From Fibrobacterota bacterium (GTDB lineage Bacteria > Fibrobacterota > Chitinivibrionia > Chitinivibrionales > FEN-1185), in assembly GCA_003165595.1 (NCBI GenBank), contig PLWQ01000026.1, positions 149,639-213,638 of the forward strand: a stretch of DNA of 64,000 nt, written 5' to 3'. The notes under the pieces are model-generated. The model was given only the letters and a program-made list of their open reading frames with translations. It was not told the DNA's origin and ran no database searches. Both the position numbers and the translations under genes were made by a program. Of this stretch, positions 6,690-15,195 are shown in pieces. How positions within the stretch are numbered: the first letter of the stretch is position 1; every line of letters begins with the position of its first letter.

Positions 6690-7037
6690 TTACAGCGCTT
6701 CCGCCCCTCGTTCCCGCGTCCGAATCCGCATCGCGTCTTCGAGCGGAAGAATGAATATCTTGCCGTCGCCGATCTGGCCCTCTTTACCGGTGCGGGCAGC
6801 GGAGGCGATGGCGTCGACAACGGGCTCAACATACTTGTCGTCAACCGCTATCTCGAGCTTCACCTTGCTGATGAAGTTGATCTTGTATTCGTGTCCGCGG
6901 TAGACCTCCGTGTGGCCCTTCTGGCGTCCGATGCCCTCGACGTCGGTTACCGTAAGGCGGAACGATTCGATCCGGCTCAATGCTTCCTTCACTGCCTCAA
7001 GCCTTGTAGGCTGTATTACTGCTACGATGTATTTCAT
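6690..7037 (-). CDS. glnK: PII nitrogen regulatory protein GlnK/GlnB
   Basis: The 115-residue protein has the full PII fold. The T-loop (about 37-55) carries Tyr51, the residue uridylylated in proteobacterial PII proteins, and the C-terminal signature TGKEGQIGDGKIFILP is intact. PII binds 2-oxoglutarate and ATP/ADP and, next to amt, normally plugs the ammonium channel when nitrogen is plentiful. It lies 45 bp downstream of amt with its own AAGGAG ribosome-binding site, and is probably cotranscribed from the sigma54 promoter upstream of amt. Whether Tyr51 is modified here cannot be told, because no glnD lies in the window. Confidence 0.97.
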   Translation of the reverse strand: MKYIVAVIQPTRLEAVKEALSRIESFRLTVTDVEGIGRQKGHTEVYRGHEYKINFISKVKLEIAVDDKYVEPVVDAIASAARTGKEGQIGDGKIFILPLEDAMRIRTRERGAEAL

Positions 7038-7082: not shown

Positions 7083-8462
7083 TTATGCAAGCGCACGTTC
7101 GCCGTGCGCGCTGCGGTCCATGCCGACCAGTTCCTCATCCGGGCTTACGCGCAGACCGACAACAGCCTTGATGACCATAAAGATTATGAACGTGACAACC
7201 GCGTCGTACCCGATGGTGGTGCCTATGGCGATAAGCTGGATTTTCACCTGGGCCGGGTTGCCGTAGAACAGTCCCTTGCCCGCCGCATTGATTGCGGGGT
7301 CCGCAAGGAATCCGGTAAGCAGGGCACCTATAATTCCGCCGATCCCATGGATGCCGAACGCGTCGAGCGTGTCGTCGTAGCCGAGTTTGGCCTTTACAAA
7401 TGCAACCATCAGGTAACAAACGAAGCCTACGATCACGCCGATGATGATTGCGCCGCCCACGTTGACGAATCCTGCCGCGGGCGTGATGGCCACGAGACCC
7501 GCGACCGCTCCGGAAGCAAGACCGAGCACCGTCGGCTTCTTGTTGAAGAACCATTCGGTAAACATCCACGAAAGTGCCGCAACGGCGGTGGCGGTATTGG
7601 TATTGATGAAAGCAGCGCAGGCCAAACCGCTCGCGGTGAGCGCCGATCCTGCGTTGAACCCGAACCACCCGAACCATAGGAGCCCCGCCCCGGTTACCGT
7701 TGCAACGAGGTTATTGGGGACGAGCGACGTCTCTCTGCGTTTTCCCATGACAAGTGCGCCTATGAGCGCCGCGATGCCCGCATTGATATGCACGACCGTA
7801 CCGCCGGCAAAGTCGAGCGCGCCCAGCTTTGCGAGGAAGCCGTTGCCCCATACCCAATGGGCGACCGGGCAATACACGAGCGTCATCCACAGAACCGAGA
7901 ATAGAATCCACGCCGAGAACTTCATCCGTTCGATGTATGCTCCGCTGGCGAGCGCAACCGTGATCGCCGCGAACGTGAGCTGGAACACCACAAAGATGAG
8001 TTCGGGAATCGTGTTCTGATAGGAAGACAGGGTGTCGACCTTAATCCCGTTCATCATGAACTTCTGGACGTTGCCGATGATCCCGTGCACATCCGTACCG
8101 AAGGCCAGGGAATACCCGTACACAACCCAAAGGACGCTCACAATCGCGAAGGTGACAAACGACATCGCAATGACGTTGAGCGTGTCCTTGCGTTTTGCGA
8201 TGCCCCCGTAAAACAGCGCGAGGCCGGGGAGGGTCATCAGCATGACGAGGGCCGTTGCCACAATCATCCATGCCGTGTCGCCCGAATTAAGGGACGCAGC
8301 AGGCGCCGGGGCGGGCGCCGGAGCTGCGGCGGGCGCCGCGATTATGGCCGCCTTTGCCGAATCTGCGGTCGCCGGCACCGGCGTGGCAGATTGCCCGAGC
8401 GAATGCATCACCGTCGCAAGGACAAATCCGATAACCATTGCAACGAAAGCTTTCTTGATCAT
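7083..8462 (-). CDS. amt: Ammonium transporter Amt
   Basis: The ATG at 8462 was chosen because GAGGAGGA lies a few bases upstream; an earlier in-frame start has no such site. The 459-residue protein has an N-terminal hydrophobic or signal segment, an Ala/Pro-rich linker (about 35-60) and then the Amt/MEP core with eleven predicted membrane helices. The two pore histidines are visible in VHINAGIAALIG and FGIHGIGGIIG, and the substrate-entry region is typical. It imports ammonium or ammonia across the inner membrane and is regulated by PII, encoded just downstream. A sigma54 promoter at 8648-8662 lies 186 bp upstream. Confidence 0.96.
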   Translation of the reverse strand: MIKKAFVAMVIGFVLATVMHSLGQSATPVPATADSAKAAIIAAPAAAPAPAPAPAASLNSGDTAWMIVATALVMLMTLPGLALFYGGIAKRKDTLNVIAMSFVTFAIVSVLWVVYGYSLAFGTDVHGIIGNVQKFMMNGIKVDTLSSYQNTIPELIFVVFQLTFAAITVALASGAYIERMKFSAWILFSVLWMTLVYCPVAHWVWGNGFLAKLGALDFAGGTVVHINAGIAALIGALVMGKRRETSLVPNNLVATVTGAGLLWFGWFGFNAGSALTASGLACAAFINTNTATAVAALSWMFTEWFFNKKPTVLGLASGAVAGLVAITPAAGFVNVGGAIIIGVIVGFVCYLMVAFVKAKLGYDDTLDAFGIHGIGGIIGALLTGFLADPAINAAGKGLFYGNPAQVKIQLIAIGTTIGYDAVVTFIIFMVIKAVVGLRVSPDEELVGMDRSAHGERALA

Positions 8463-8662: not shown

Positions 8663-8823
8663 TTGCTATTGGCGAAGCAATCTCTCCGGTGAATTATGCG
8701 AGGAGCTTCACTCGTCAGCCCCCCAAAGCGCACAAAATTGTGACAAATGATCTCCACGGCACAAGATTGTATCGTTTGGGATGCCTCGGGGGCTCCCGCA
8801 GCATTGACAAGGGGGCAACCATA

Positions 8824-8841
8824 TTTTGCAGAATTGCAAAA
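8824..8841. promoter_or_regulatory. Candidate upstream activator site, TTTTGCA-N4-TGCAAAA
   Basis: A perfect 7-bp inverted repeat lies 162 bp upstream of the amt sigma54 promoter. A related but imperfect sequence (ATTTGCAGATTTTGC on the minus strand, near 9283-9297) lies upstream of the second sigma54 promoter. A Fis-type HTH dimer could bind such a site; this is inferred from position only. Confidence 0.4.
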
Positions 8842-8923
8842 GGATCCGTGGCGTGATCAGCGCGAGAACGCGTTGGAGAACTCGGCGGGGAAGTCGTCCC
8901 GAAACGTTTGGGCGTTGGGTATT

Positions 8924-9208
8924 CTAGGGAAGCAGCGCGGTGTGGGGGTCGTCGTGCACGCCTTTGGCATATACTTCTGATAATGGATGCCACTCAAAAA
9001 ACGTATTGCCCTGCTGGTGATGGCTCTTGAATGCCTTGCAATCGATTCCGTATTTGCGGATCTTGTATTGGATCTTCCGCTTGGTAATGCCAAGCTGCTT
9101 GGCTGCCCGGCTTTGGTTGCCGCGCGTGTCCCTGAGAGTAGTTTCTATAATATTATGCTCGAAAGACGCCAGTATCTGGTCTAGATTCTTCTGTGTTCGG
9201 TCTGTCAT
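8924..9208 (-). CDS. Stand-alone Fis-type HTH protein (NifA/NtrC C-terminal-like)
   Basis: The 94-residue product starts at an ATG with AAGGAGC upstream. Residues about 15-52 (TRGNQSRAAKQLGITKRKIQ) form a Fis/HTH_8 helix-turn-helix closely resembling the C-terminus of the NifA-like activator encoded next door ([20 protein letters not shown]), but there is no AAA+ or sensor domain. The tail after residue 55 is unrecognised. It may compete with or assist the activator at its upstream sites. Its own sigma54 promoter (9246-9260) suggests that it is a member of the nitrogen regulon and could act as a feedback element. Function is inferred from similarity and position. Confidence 0.7.
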   Translation of the reverse strand: MTDRTQKNLDQILASFEHNIIETTLRDTRGNQSRAAKQLGITKRKIQYKIRKYGIDCKAFKSHHQQGNTFFEWHPLSEVYAKGVHDDPHTALLP

Positions 9209-9245
9209 GGTGCTCCTTGCAAAAATGGGATTCTAAATGAGAAAA

Positions 9246-9260
9246 GCAAGGGGCATGCCA
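9246..9260 (-). promoter_or_regulatory. Sigma54 promoter of the small Fis-type gene
   Basis: The minus strand reads TGGCATG-CCCC-TTGC, one mismatch to the TGGCACG-N4-TTGC consensus with correct spacing. The -12 element lies 38 bp upstream of the ATG at 9208, leaving room for a short leader with the ribosome-binding site. Confidence 0.75.
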
Positions 9261-9385
9261 CAGGGGAAACCATGGCAAAATCTGCAAATTGAAGGACCCC
9301 GCAGCAAGCTTCGGGGAATGCGCTCGCTGTGGGATTCAGACTTGCGTCGGTAATGAAGATCGCCGAAGATACAGAATTGTAGCGG

Positions 9386-10963
9386 TCAGGAAGGTTGAGC
9401 GGTTCCGCGGAGGCGTCGAAAATCGATATTGAGCCTCTGGATCTTGTACTGGACTATGCGTTTTGTGGTGCCGAGTATCTGCGCAGCCTTTGTCTGGTTA
9501 CCGCGCGCGTCCTTGAGGGCGTCAACAATGAGTTCCTTTTCGTAGGAGGCTACCATCGCCTCGAACGTGTCTTTGCGAGTTCCCTGCTGCGAGGATTCCT
9601 TCATCTGCAGTGTTGGCGGCAAATCGTGGCCGTTTATCACATTGCCGGCGGCGACAAGGACCGCGCGCTCCATTACGTTCTCCAGTTCGCGCACGTTTCC
9701 CGGCCAGTGATATGCGGAGAGCATGTCGATGGCGGACGTTGAGATCCGCTCGATCTTCTTGTTGTTGAGCGCGGCGTATTTCTTGACAAAGTAGTCGGCG
9801 AGGAGGAGCGCGTCCGCGCCCCGCTCCCGGAGCGGCGGAAGATCTACCGTGAACACGTTTATTCTATAATAGAGGTCTTCGCGAAACCGGCCTTCGGCAA
9901 CGTCGGTTTCGAGATTGCGGTTCGTTGCGCAGATGAGCCGGACGTTCACTCTCACCGAGTTCGCTCCTCCCACGCGCTGGATCTCTTTTTCCTGGATCGC
10001 CCGCAGCAGGCGTCCCTGCGCGGACAGCGACATTTCTCCGACCTCGTCGAGAAACAGCGTACCGTTGTCGGCCGATTCGAACCTGCCGATTCGCTTGGAT
10101 AGTGCACCTGTAAACGAGCCTTTTTCGTGTCCAAAGAGCTCGCTTTCCAGAAGCGACTCCGGAAGCGCGGCGCAGTTTACCGGCACAAAAGGGCCGCCGG
10201 CAAAAGGACTCTTCTCGTGAATCGCGCGTGCCACCAATTCCTTGCCCGTGCCTGTTTCTCCCCGGACAAGCACCGTTGTCATGGACGGCGCTACCTGGCC
10301 TATCTGGCGGTATACCTCACGCATGGATCCGCTGTTTCCAACCATCTGGTCCGGCTTGCCCTTTTCCTCGAGGTTCCTTCTGAGTTCGAGGTTCTCGCGT
10401 TCGAGAGCGGTGATCAATTCCTGCTGCTTGCGCCGTGCCACGACAACCTGGGCGATGAGACCTGCCACGGCCTGGAGAAACTGCAACTCACCGTCGAGCG
10501 TCATCGCGTCTTCCACCGAAACCTTGTCCACCGAAAGCGCCCCCACGACATCGTCCCCGGCTTTGATGGGAACGCAGAGGAAGGCGAGGTCGCTGTCCTT
10601 GAGGTTCTTGCGGGCTCCCGTTTTATCAAGAAACGTCGGCTCGTTCTTGAGCTTGGGGATCGCAATGGGCCTTCCGGTGGCGACCACCCTGCCGGTAATT
10701 CCCTCTCCGAGCCGGTATCTGCCGCGCCGTTTTCCGCTTTCGGATATTCCGCGGGCAATGTCAACCGCGAGTTCGGAGCTCTCGGGATTGAGAATGGAAA
10801 TCATGCCTCGCTTCATGCCCGCGTAGGTTTCCAATATGTCCAGGACTCCTTCCATGATCTTTTCGATGCTTTCGCCCGAACTCAGGAGATGGGCAATGCG
10901 ATAGAGCGTGGCAAGGCCGTTGAAGCCAAGGTGGGCGCCTATTTCGTCAGGATTGGACATCAT
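9386..10963 (-). CDS. NifA/NtrC-type sigma54 activator (GAF-AAA+-Fis HTH)
   Basis: The start was placed at 10963 (MMSNPDEIG) because about 146 codons further upstream translate GC-rich intergenic repeats. The 525 residues comprise a GAF sensor (about 15-170), a sigma54-interacting AAA+ domain (about 205-435) with Walker A GETGTGKE, the loop motif [13 protein letters not shown] and Walker [12 protein letters not shown], and a C-terminal Fis-type HTH (about 480-515). The sigma54-contacting loop reads GSFTGA where GAFTGA is usual. GAF-AAA-HTH order is that of NifA, but no nif genes are present. Together with glnK, amt and two sigma54 promoters it most likely activates nitrogen-assimilation genes. 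Confidence 0.88.
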
Positions 10964-11528
10964 ATAGTTCTTGCTGAGTGCCGAAGTGCGTGTGCGTTGT
11001 CTTGAGCGGATAGAAAATAAATGAATCTGTGTGGGCGCGCACGGGAAAAATACAAAATTGTACCAAGATGGACTTCCAAGAGAAGTTTTTGGTTGCTGAG
11101 CCGGTGCGGCGTGCGGACCTCTCATTGCAATAAGGCCTATAAAAGATTGGGCGCCCCGCTGCTGCGCAGCGGCGGCCCTCCGTTCACACTCGGCATCCAG
11201 CCTCGTGCCCTTGCGGGCGCACTTCGTGCGTGGTCTCCGCACGTCCTGTGCTTCGGCTCGGGCTCGGCTGGTCAGCCTCGGTACCGCCTGCCGCAATGCC
11301 CTTTGTTCACGCTCCGCGTCCAGCTCCGCGCCCTTCGGGCGCACTTCGTGCGTGGTCTCCGCACATCCTGTGCTTCGGCTCGGGCCGTGGTCAGGCGGCA
11401 CCGCGCTCCTGCGCGCCCACGGTCCGTCCTGGCGCGGCGCAGAGGGTTAGTTGCCGATCAATGTCTTTGACTATTCAACTGGGAAATGGGATTTTGGATT
11501 TCTAAGCTGATGCGGCCGCTCAATGTTT
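10964..11528. other. GC-rich gene-free region with a direct repeat
   Basis: No supported gene lies here. Open frames on both strands are by-products of GC-rich sequence. The region contains two copies of an about 80-bp unit (11182-11260 and 11305-11383) and must hold the promoter of the sigma54 activator gene near 10964-11060, where I see no clear consensus. Confidence 0.6.
11182..11383. repeat. Two direct copies of an 80-bp GC-rich unit, 123 bp apart
   Basis: Copies at 11182-11260 and 11305-11383 share long identical stretches, including CGGGCGCACTTCGTGCGTGG followed by TCTCCGCAC. The unit itself contains short palindromes (GCGCACTTCGTGCG). Origin unknown. Confidence 0.75.
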
Positions 11529-12876: not shown

Positions 12877-13791
12877 ATGCCACAAGAGAAGACGAACCTG
12901 CTCAAGCGGATCGAATCCGGGAAGCAGATAGTGACGGCCGAGATTTCGCCTCCAAAATCGGCCGACGCGGCCAGCGTTCGCGCCGTGGCCAAACTGTATG
13001 CGGGGAAAGTCCACGCCCTGGGCGTGAGCGACAACCGGGACGGGGTAAGAATGTCCGCGGTTTCCGCAGCTGCTGTTATCGCGTCCGAAAAGGTGGAGCC
13101 TATTCTGCACATGACCACGCGCGACCGCAACCGGACTGCCCTGATTTCCGATTTTCTGGGCGCGCGGGCGCTCGGCGTGCGCAACGTGCTCTGCACCAGC
13201 GGCACGCATCAGACGCTTCTTCCGTTTCACGCGGCCAAGAATGTTTTCGATATCGATGCCACAATTCTGCTGCAAAGTCTGCATGGTTTGGAAAAAAATG
13301 CCACGATCGTAGGTGAGCAAAATATCGATGGCGATGTGTCGTATTGTCTTGGGGCGGTTGCTTCCCCTTTTGCAGATCCAGTTGAATTGCAGCTGCCGCG
13401 GCTCGCGCAGAAGATCTTTGTGGGAGCGCAGTTTATTGTAACCCAGCCGGTCTTTGATCTTGAACGCTTCGGTCTGTGGTGGAAGCAGGTTGTCGGCCGC
13501 GATCTGCACACAAAAGCCGCGTTCATTGCCGGCATACGGGTTCTTTCCGACGCCGATACGACAAGATCATTTGTTGAAAAGAGGCCCGATCCCATGGTGC
13601 CGGCCGACATGCTCAAGCGACTCTCTTCAAAATCGGACAAGAATTCGGTTCGCAGCGAGGGCATTAAGATAGCGCTTGAAACAATTGAAAAACTCTCTGC
13701 CGTCCAGGGATTGCGCGGTTTTGAAATCGTGTGTGACGACGACGATGCCGCACTGGAAGTACTCGACGCTTTGAAATCGAGATTGGGATAA
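12877..13791 (+). CDS. metF: Methylenetetrahydrofolate reductase MetF
   Basis: The 304-residue protein has the MetF TIM-barrel hallmarks: VTAEISPPKS at the N-terminus, HMTTRDRN and the FVGAQFIVTQPVFD region that binds FAD and folate. It reduces methylene-THF to methyl-THF. It is the short form that in acetogens works with MetV and an HdrABC-MvhD module rather than using NAD(P)H directly. MetV is present but 12 kb downstream (26206), separated by the glutamate synthase and Nuo/Hdr fusion genes. It is followed after 6 bp by the first glutamate-synthase-like gene. Confidence 0.92.
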   Translation: MPQEKTNLLKRIESGKQIVTAEISPPKSADAASVRAVAKLYAGKVHALGVSDNRDGVRMSAVSAAAVIASEKVEPILHMTTRDRNRTALISDFLGARALGVRNVLCTSGTHQTLLPFHAAKNVFDIDATILLQSLHGLEKNATIVGEQNIDGDVSYCLGAVASPFADPVELQLPRLAQKIFVGAQFIVTQPVFDLERFGLWWKQVVGRDLHTKAAFIAGIRVLSDADTTRSFVEKRPDPMVPADMLKRLSSKSDKNSVRSEGIKIALETIEKLSAVQGLRGFEIVCDDDDAALEVLDALKSRLG

Positions 13792-13797
13792 TCATAC

Positions 13798-15195
13798 ATG
13801 CCAGCCAAGTTTCATATCCATACACGTCTCACACCGCCGCGAATCCGCCCGGAAGGCAAGCTCGGCATCGTTGACTGGAGAGAAGACTGCTCCAGCTGCA
13901 AGAACTGCGTCAAGAAGGGCTGCGTGTACGGCCTGTATCGCGATGAGGCCGATGCGCTGCGCGACGAAATCGGCTATCTCGATTATATTTACCAGTGCAA
14001 AGGCTGCCTCACCTGCGTGCAGAACTGCACAAAGAATATTCTTACCAGGGTCGTGAACCCCGAATACGAGCGGCTCGGCGATGCATATTATACGCCGGAT
14101 ATCGTGCTTACCACCTGGTTCCAGGCGGAAACCGGCGGCGTTCCCGTGTCCGGCTGCGGCTACGGCGGACCGTTTTCGGGAGAGGGTTTCGATTCCATGT
14201 GGACCGACATGTCCGAAATCGTGCGGCCCACGCGCGACGGCATTCACGGACGCGAATACATCAACACGGGTGTCGACATCGGCCGCAAACTTGGACGCAT
14301 TTCCTTTGACAACGGGAAACTGCGCGAAACCCCTCCGCCCAGGCTCACGAGCCCGCTGCCGCTGATGTTCGACAACATCGAGGAGCGCTGGGCGCATCCG
14401 CCGGTCGTTTCCGCGCTTGTGAATGCCGCAACCGAACTGGGCGTGTTTGCACTGGTTTCTCCGGACAGGATCGCAAAGCTCGGGACCGGCGCGACTGGTC
14501 AGCTGGTGCCTTTGATTACCGGCGGCGGCACCGGTTCTGGCGGGCAGTGCGAGCAGGCGGCCATGATAATGATAGGAGATTCCGACGGCGTTGTCGAGGC
14601 AGTTGCCGCATGTAAAAAGGAAAATGCCGGGAGGATTGTTGCGGTCCGCCTGTCCGCAAATAAAGCCGCGGCCCAACGGGTCGTGTGGCTGGCTGAGCAG
14701 GGCATCGAGGTTGCCAATGTCGTGTTCGACAAGCACGGACGCGAACACGAGCCGCATCAGCCGCGCCATATGCGCGACGGTCTCCGGGAAATTCATGGCG
14801 CCCTTGTCAAGGCGGCCATCCGGGACGAAATCACGCTTGTCGCCTCCGGCGGTATCGCGCTGCCCGAGCATATGGCCAAGGCCATCATCTGCGGCGCCGA
14901 CCTGGTGACGGTGGACATTCCGCTTGTTCTTGCCATGGACTGCAGGCTGTGCGGCGAATGCGAACGGGACGAACAGTGTGCCGTCGACCTGGCCGGCATC
15001 GATGCGGCATATGCAAAGAGCAGGGTGGTCAACCTGATGGGGTCGTGGCACAGCCAGCTTCTTGAGATGCTTGGCGCAATGGGAATTCGTGAGGCACGGC
15101 GTCTGCGCGGCGAGGTCGGCAGATGCATGTTCTTTGAAGACCTGGAACGGGCGGCGTTCGGGCGGATATTCGGGAAACGCAAAGACGGCAAATAG
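13798..15195 (+). CDS. Divergent glutamate-synthase-type FMN/Fe-S protein
   Basis: This 465-residue protein is related to the central FMN domain (GltB2) of glutamate synthase. Residues about 30-75 hold two ferredoxin-type Cys clusters (CSSCKNCVKKGC, CKGCLTCVQNC). The later part keeps the barrel end TLVASGGIALPEHMAKAI and a Cys cluster CRLCGECERDEQC. It lacks the GMSFGS and TGEGG motifs that the next gene has, so FMN/substrate binding may be altered or lost. It is likely an electron-transfer or structural paralogue paired with the following GltB2. It lies within the redox operon, between metF and a hairpin repeat. Confidence 0.75.
   Translation: MPAKFHIHTRLTPPRIRPEGKLGIVDWREDCSSCKNCVKKGCVYGLYRDEADALRDEIGYLDYIYQCKGCLTCVQNCTKNILTRVVNPEYERLGDAYYTPDIVLTTWFQAETGGVPVSGCGYGGPFSGEGFDSMWTDMSEIVRPTRDGIHGREYINTGVDIGRKLGRISFDNGKLRETPPPRLTSPLPLMFDNIEERWAHPPVVSALVNAATELGVFALVSPDRIAKLGTGATGQLVPLITGGGTGSGGQCEQAAMIMIGDSDGVVEAVAACKKENAGRIVAVRLSANKAAAQRVVWLAEQGIEVANVVFDKHGREHEPHQPRHMRDGLREIHGALVKAAIRDEITLVASGGIALPEHMAKAIICGADLVTVDIPLVLAMDCRLCGECERDEQCAVDLAGIDAAYAKSRVVNLMGSWHSQLLEMLGAMGIREARRLRGEVGRCMFFEDLERAAFGRIFGKRKDGK

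Follow-up and report, generated by a model that had tools for sequence, protein, structure and literature searches.

Between a NifA-like sigma54 activator gene and amt-glnK, the 64,000-nucleotide stretch of DNA analysed here (the window) carries a small HTH gene (sHTH) whose product is a stand-alone Fis-type DNA-binding domain. Both marks of the neighbouring activator's putative regulon are present at this gene: the window's top sigma54 promoter and an independently modelled operator. Analysis of the locus suggests that sHTH was derived from the DNA-binding domain of a NifA-like sigma54 activator of this lineage, and we regard the chances as evenly balanced that it acts as a weak competitive negative-feedback protein of the activator's regulon.

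The small HTH gene and its neighbours

The genes concerned, with the features of sHTH itself, are as follows.

9386..10963 (-): NifA-like sigma54 activator gene with GAF, AAA+ and Fis HTH domains (Pfam and TIGR01817 score)
9213..9218 (-): Shine-Dalgarno sequence AAGGAG of sHTH (by sequence)
8924..9208 (-): sHTH, stand-alone Fis/HTH_8 gene, an intact ORF of 94 aa with its ATG at 9208
9050..9118 (-): HTH core of sHTH, residues 31-53, NQSRAAKQLGITKRKIQYKIRKY (conserved positions and AF2 helices)
7083..8462 (-): amt, ammonium transporter gene; start set by a GAGGA ribosome site, the ORF extending to 8507
6690..7037 (-): glnK, PII gene (family matches)

The original prediction of a 94-residue Fis-type HTH protein at 8924-9208 is borne out: the minus-strand ORF encodes an HTH_8 domain (Pfam PF02954; E 5e-13, 48.9 bits against a curated cut-off of 22), with a second HTH model matching below threshold only, and, as was also proposed, Pfam finds in it no AAA+ sigma54-interaction domain, which is present in the neighbouring activator. 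The genome contains 19 HTH_8 domains, and that of sHTH is the only one to stand alone (its frame comprises 102 codons, those of the others at least 341). The codon score of residues 1-60, 0.21 per codon, falls inside the range for real genes (0.36 +/- 0.13; other frames have a mean of -0.02 or lower), and the codon signal of the tail, residues 61-94, is weak. Scans of the locus for sigma70 promoters and terminators returned nothing better than chance.

The close resemblance to the neighbour's HTH that was originally described stands as homology, BLASTP aligning sHTH with the C-terminus of the adjacent activator at 40% identity over 60 aa (E 2e-14), but the neighbour is not its closest relative; sHTH is 41-51% identical to activator C-termini throughout the order. 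The listed 671-aa ORF of the activator is over-extended, and comparison with relatives places the likely start at 10963 or 10960. Against the NifA equivalog model TIGR01817 the activator scores 512.3 bits, just below the cut-off of 528.85.

In an alignment of the lineage's activator C-termini, sHTH keeps 17 of the 25 family-conserved columns, distributed as 13 of 14 from G30 (GNQ) onward versus 4 of 11 before it (Fisher p 0.004, for a split point picked after the alignment was viewed). On this alignment, predicted DNA recognition is preserved and the helix joining the HTH to the AAA+ part has drifted. The recognition helix reads TKRKIQYKI, compared with TKRI/V-I/V-QYKI in most activators; the pattern TKR-x-x-QYKI is common to sHTH and nearly every main-clade activator, and the single DNA-facing difference is K45, where activators have I or V. 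Because the HTH positions are so nearly all kept, sHTH is likely to occupy the same operators as the activator; K45 and R34 may change its specificity.

An AF2 model based on a 5-row alignment places helices at residues 3-27, 32-39, 43-53 and 58-64, with pLDDT above 90 for most of residues 11-60, including the second and third helices; tail residues 61-94 are modelled with low confidence and are probably disordered. There is no separate helix A in the model. Foldseek matches it to Fis and NtrC-type domains with a probability of 1.0 and E-values above 0.03, these high E-values presumably being due to the small size of the protein.

Sigma54 promoters, operators and the predicted nitrogen regulon

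The regulatory elements recognized in the window are listed below.

11048..11065 (-): operator upstream of nifA, 17.2 bits, top match in the window; no sigma54 promoter adjoining
9367..9384 (-): single operator (UAS) of the sHTH promoter, CGCTACAATTCTGTATCT, 15.3 bits, second in the window
9245..9260 (-): sigma54 -24/-12 promoter of sHTH, TGGCATGCCCCTTGCT (TGGCATG-N4-TTGC), top-scoring site
8757..8774 (-): amt operator 1, CGATACAATCTTGTGCCG, 15.1 bits
8728..8745 (-): amt operator 2, 29 bp from operator 1, 12.8 bits
8647..8662 (-): sigma54 promoter of amt, TGGCACGAGTATTGCG, second-ranked site

The small gene had been proposed to have a sigma54-dependent promoter, and by sequence its candidate promoter is indeed the best when a sigma54 consensus score is run across both strands of the 64 kb. 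Strict matches number 2 in the window versus 0.15 expected in shuffles, and 13 genome-wide (5.4 Mb), that of sHTH included, versus 6 for a reversed control pattern. The genome encodes RpoN, and relatives also have sigma54 promoters before amt.

A palindromic operator motif, cGATACAAnnTTGTATCg, was derived from the amt upstream regions of nine relatives, the window being left out of the training; in those regions it is usually present twice, at an interval of about 30 bp, and the distance to the downstream -24 element is typically about 60-110 bp. The four top matches in the window (width 18) lie upstream of nifA, of sHTH and, twice, of amt, and shuffled windows yield 0.9 matches at 12.7 bits or more and about 0.13 at 15 bits or more. 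The sHTH operator sits 124 bp upstream of the -24 element, within the interval of 60-165 bp by which a sigma54 promoter with an activator operator was counted as a regulon target. From this operator and promoter we infer that sHTH is controlled by the neighbouring activator, in agreement with the original prediction. The enhancer had been placed at 8800-8850; since the top operator matches fall elsewhere (8728-8745, 8757-8774, 9367-9384 and 11048-11065), that interval is not the enhancer, and the sole notable element in it is a palindrome outside the operator model. This perfect palindrome, TTTTGCAGAATTGCAAAA (TTTTGCA-N4-TGCAAAA; 8824-8841), lies between sHTH and amt and is the sole exact copy in the genome.

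Beyond the window, the operator scan covered selected stretches and one exact pattern search. Strict sigma54 sites with strong operators nearby occur at sHTH, at amt and at a divergent pair on contig 21 facing amt2, an ammonium transporter gene (Pfam), and gltB, a putative glutamate synthase gene. These two genes diverge with one operator pair between two sigma54 promoters (L086 6818-7024). On the same contig (L086 12156-12293) an operator of 19.0 bits lies 122 bp upstream of the sigma54 site before glnA (glutamine synthetase), which thus resembles sHTH in both spacing and the possession of a single operator; the identities of gltB and glnA come from translations read by eye. Because nifH was not found in this genome and operators are present at amt, amt2, gltB and glnA, the activator is best interpreted as controlling nitrogen assimilation rather than nif genes. 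Because amt2, gltB and glnA also have this operator and sigma54 promoters, sHTH is the sole non-metabolic candidate target seen in this predicted regulon. In proteobacterial NtrC regulons, too, amt, glnK and glnA are activated through sigma54, with palindromic operators arranged in pairs; the present case differs in having a GAF-type NifA homologue as the activator, in a genome without nifH, the motif derived above as the operator, and a free DNA-binding domain as a member of the regulon.

Operators upstream of nifA-like genes recur across the order (L045, L048, L049, L050, L053, L055, L057, L058, L059, L062, L065 and L067), in many relatives at a position similar to that in the window and mostly without a good sigma54 site. 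This arrangement suggests autoregulation, which is probable for nifA here and across the order. In the relative G013 (L056 11100-13388), the gene directly after that of the activator encodes a type III glutamine synthetase and is preceded by an operator pair and a perfect sigma54 site. The operator model defines a predicted nitrogen-assimilation regulon under NifA-like activators across an order in which nifH is missing from many members, this genome included.

Distribution and origin

Conservation in close relatives, on which the original prediction had been made to depend, is absent: an orthologue of sHTH was found in none of 168 genomes of the phylum, the same genus and family included, so neither the gene nor the circuit is conserved. 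The gene is known from one species so far, and other good matches in the phylum are C-termini of full-length activators, contig-end fragments or interrupted copies. Short-frame matches in G021, G031 and G022 were rejected as stand-alone genes, being contig ends or an interrupted full-length gene; three contig matches outside the phylum are C-termini of proteins of 466-574 aa rather than close stand-alone relatives; and a phage origin was set aside, no viral relative having been found. The nifA-like gene of G022 (L051 9384-10904) is interrupted in its AAA+ part by an in-frame stop or a frame change, and is either a pseudogene or an assembly error.

Comparison with relatives bears on how the gene arose. 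The congener G001 possesses an orthologous nifA (82% identity) and an orthologous amt-glnK (85%) about 37 kb apart, which places sHTH at a rearrangement junction. The MTHFR and glutamate-synthase-like genes beside nifA (window 12877-15195 onwards) keep their order in the congener (L045); the amt-glnK side has moved there, with the breakpoint at sHTH. G001 also has a second nifA beside a second amt, and the window's genome has no second nifA. In G029 (L050 7294-13181) the order on the same strand is nifA, an operator with a sigma54 promoter, nifA2, amt and glnK, so that nifA2 occupies the place taken by sHTH in the window. These tandem nifA-like genes may form an activator cascade in front of amt-glnK. 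The second nifA at the same place in G029 suggests that sHTH may be what remained of a second nifA after deletion of the GAF and AAA+ parts.

If so, sHTH could also be a relic, the C-terminal remainder of a second NifA-like gene that was lost, still transcribed from the old sigma54/operator promoter and without a biological role. The positions of the second nifA genes in G029 and G001 fit such an origin, as do the rearrangement junction, the restriction of the gene to one species and its long branch in a tree of the 63-residue domain. However, the ORF, ribosome site, promoter and 13 of 14 HTH positions are all intact, nothing resembling a GAF or AAA+ remnant was detected between nifA and amt at better than E 0.45, and the tree gives an origin from a second nifA no special support (p-AU 0.09-0.16 for grouping with second-nifA or congener rows and 0.31-0.37 for grouping with the neighbour, so that neither is rejected). 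We therefore consider a gene without function rather unlikely. With respect to the genomes compared, sHTH was either invented in this lineage or left over from a second nifA that has been lost; it does not represent a conserved circuit.

Proposed feedback and its known parallels

The preferred reading, a competitive form of the negative feedback originally proposed, would operate as follows: under nitrogen limitation, the NifA-like activator would bind its operators and, as their arrangement with the promoters suggests, drive sigma54 transcription of amt-glnK, amt2, gltB, glnA and sHTH; the sHTH protein, with the same recognition helix and no AAA+ motor, would settle as a dimer on those operators, among them the single one before its own gene and the one before nifA; and by competing there with the activator it would cap or shut off the nitrogen response. 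Such a circuit is plausible and specific, and the competition is physically possible, since the DNA-binding domain of NifA, when isolated, binds its operator on its own (PMC10590331). The isolated domain of Gluconacetobacter NifA is monomeric in solution and its binding is specific but weak (Kd 20-35 uM; PMC10590331), and sHTH would for this reason need either high abundance or extra affinity, of which K45, R34 or the tail could be the source. NifA/NtrC-type DNA-binding domains (PMC10590331; Aquifex 2m8g, 4l5e and 4fth) are the same domain with the same fold as predicted for sHTH, and the NifA-like activators of the lineage have the recognition helix TKRxxQYKI in common with it; the published NifA domain is a laboratory construct, whereas sHTH is a natural gene with its own sigma54 promoter and operator and an extra tail of 30 residues. 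Partial coverage of the literature yielded no precedent for a natural stand-alone sigma54-activator domain as a competitor.

A further possibility, which we hold only tentatively, is that the DNA-binding domain of the activator was freed as a gene and now serves as a dedicated competitive feedback inhibitor in its parent regulon. It is equally speculative that sHTH represents a Fis-like protein soon after its birth, amid operators before nifA, sHTH, amt, amt2/gltB and glnA. An NtrC-type domain is held to be the ancestor of E. coli Fis (Morett and Bork 1998, as cited in PMC7166090), and sHTH, too, is a small stand-alone HTH_8 protein from a sigma54-activator domain. Fis, however, is a DNA-bending protein of global action in which an N-terminal arm and a helix A come before helix B and the HTH closes the chain; sHTH begins with helix B, continues past the HTH into a C-terminal tail and appears to be wired into one regulon. 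Its architecture is a helix at 3-27, the HTH and a 30-residue tail, its match begins at Fis residue 52, and it scores 32.5 bits against the Fis equivalog PRK00430, for which the cut-off is 99. The sHTH locus may offer an independent, recent and testable parallel to the birth of Fis; if the feedback reading is true, simple negative feedback on a sigma54 activator would amount to expressing its operator-binding half.

NinH of phage lambda, whose HTH is N-terminal and whose C-terminal part has been implicated in dimerisation, binds and bends DNA (PMC7166090), which suggests by analogy that a small Fis-like protein can dimerise via residues outside the HTH. Like NinH, sHTH is small and Fis-like, with the HTH near its N-terminus and extra C-terminal residues; NinH differs as a phage gene encoding a DNA-bending homodimer with no tie to a sigma54 activator. 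NinH, together with a predicted sHTH fold that fits Fis as well as NtrC-type domains, could be taken to favour the alternative, offered from the beginning, that sHTH is an architectural helper that bends or structures promoter DNA and so aids activation. Yet sHTH is without the dimer helix A and N-terminal arm of Fis, its recognition helix is that of the activators and not of Fis, and the operators of relatives all work without such a protein; DNA bending, which has no specific support, is accordingly improbable.

Least probable is retargeting by K45 and R34 (K in place of I/V where Fis has T87, and a basic residue where Fis has R76, both DNA-facing) to make sHTH a second-tier nitrogen regulator of other sites such as the palindrome at 8824-8841, for that palindrome was chosen after the fact and has no exact recurrence, and the remaining residues of the recognition helix match those of the activators.
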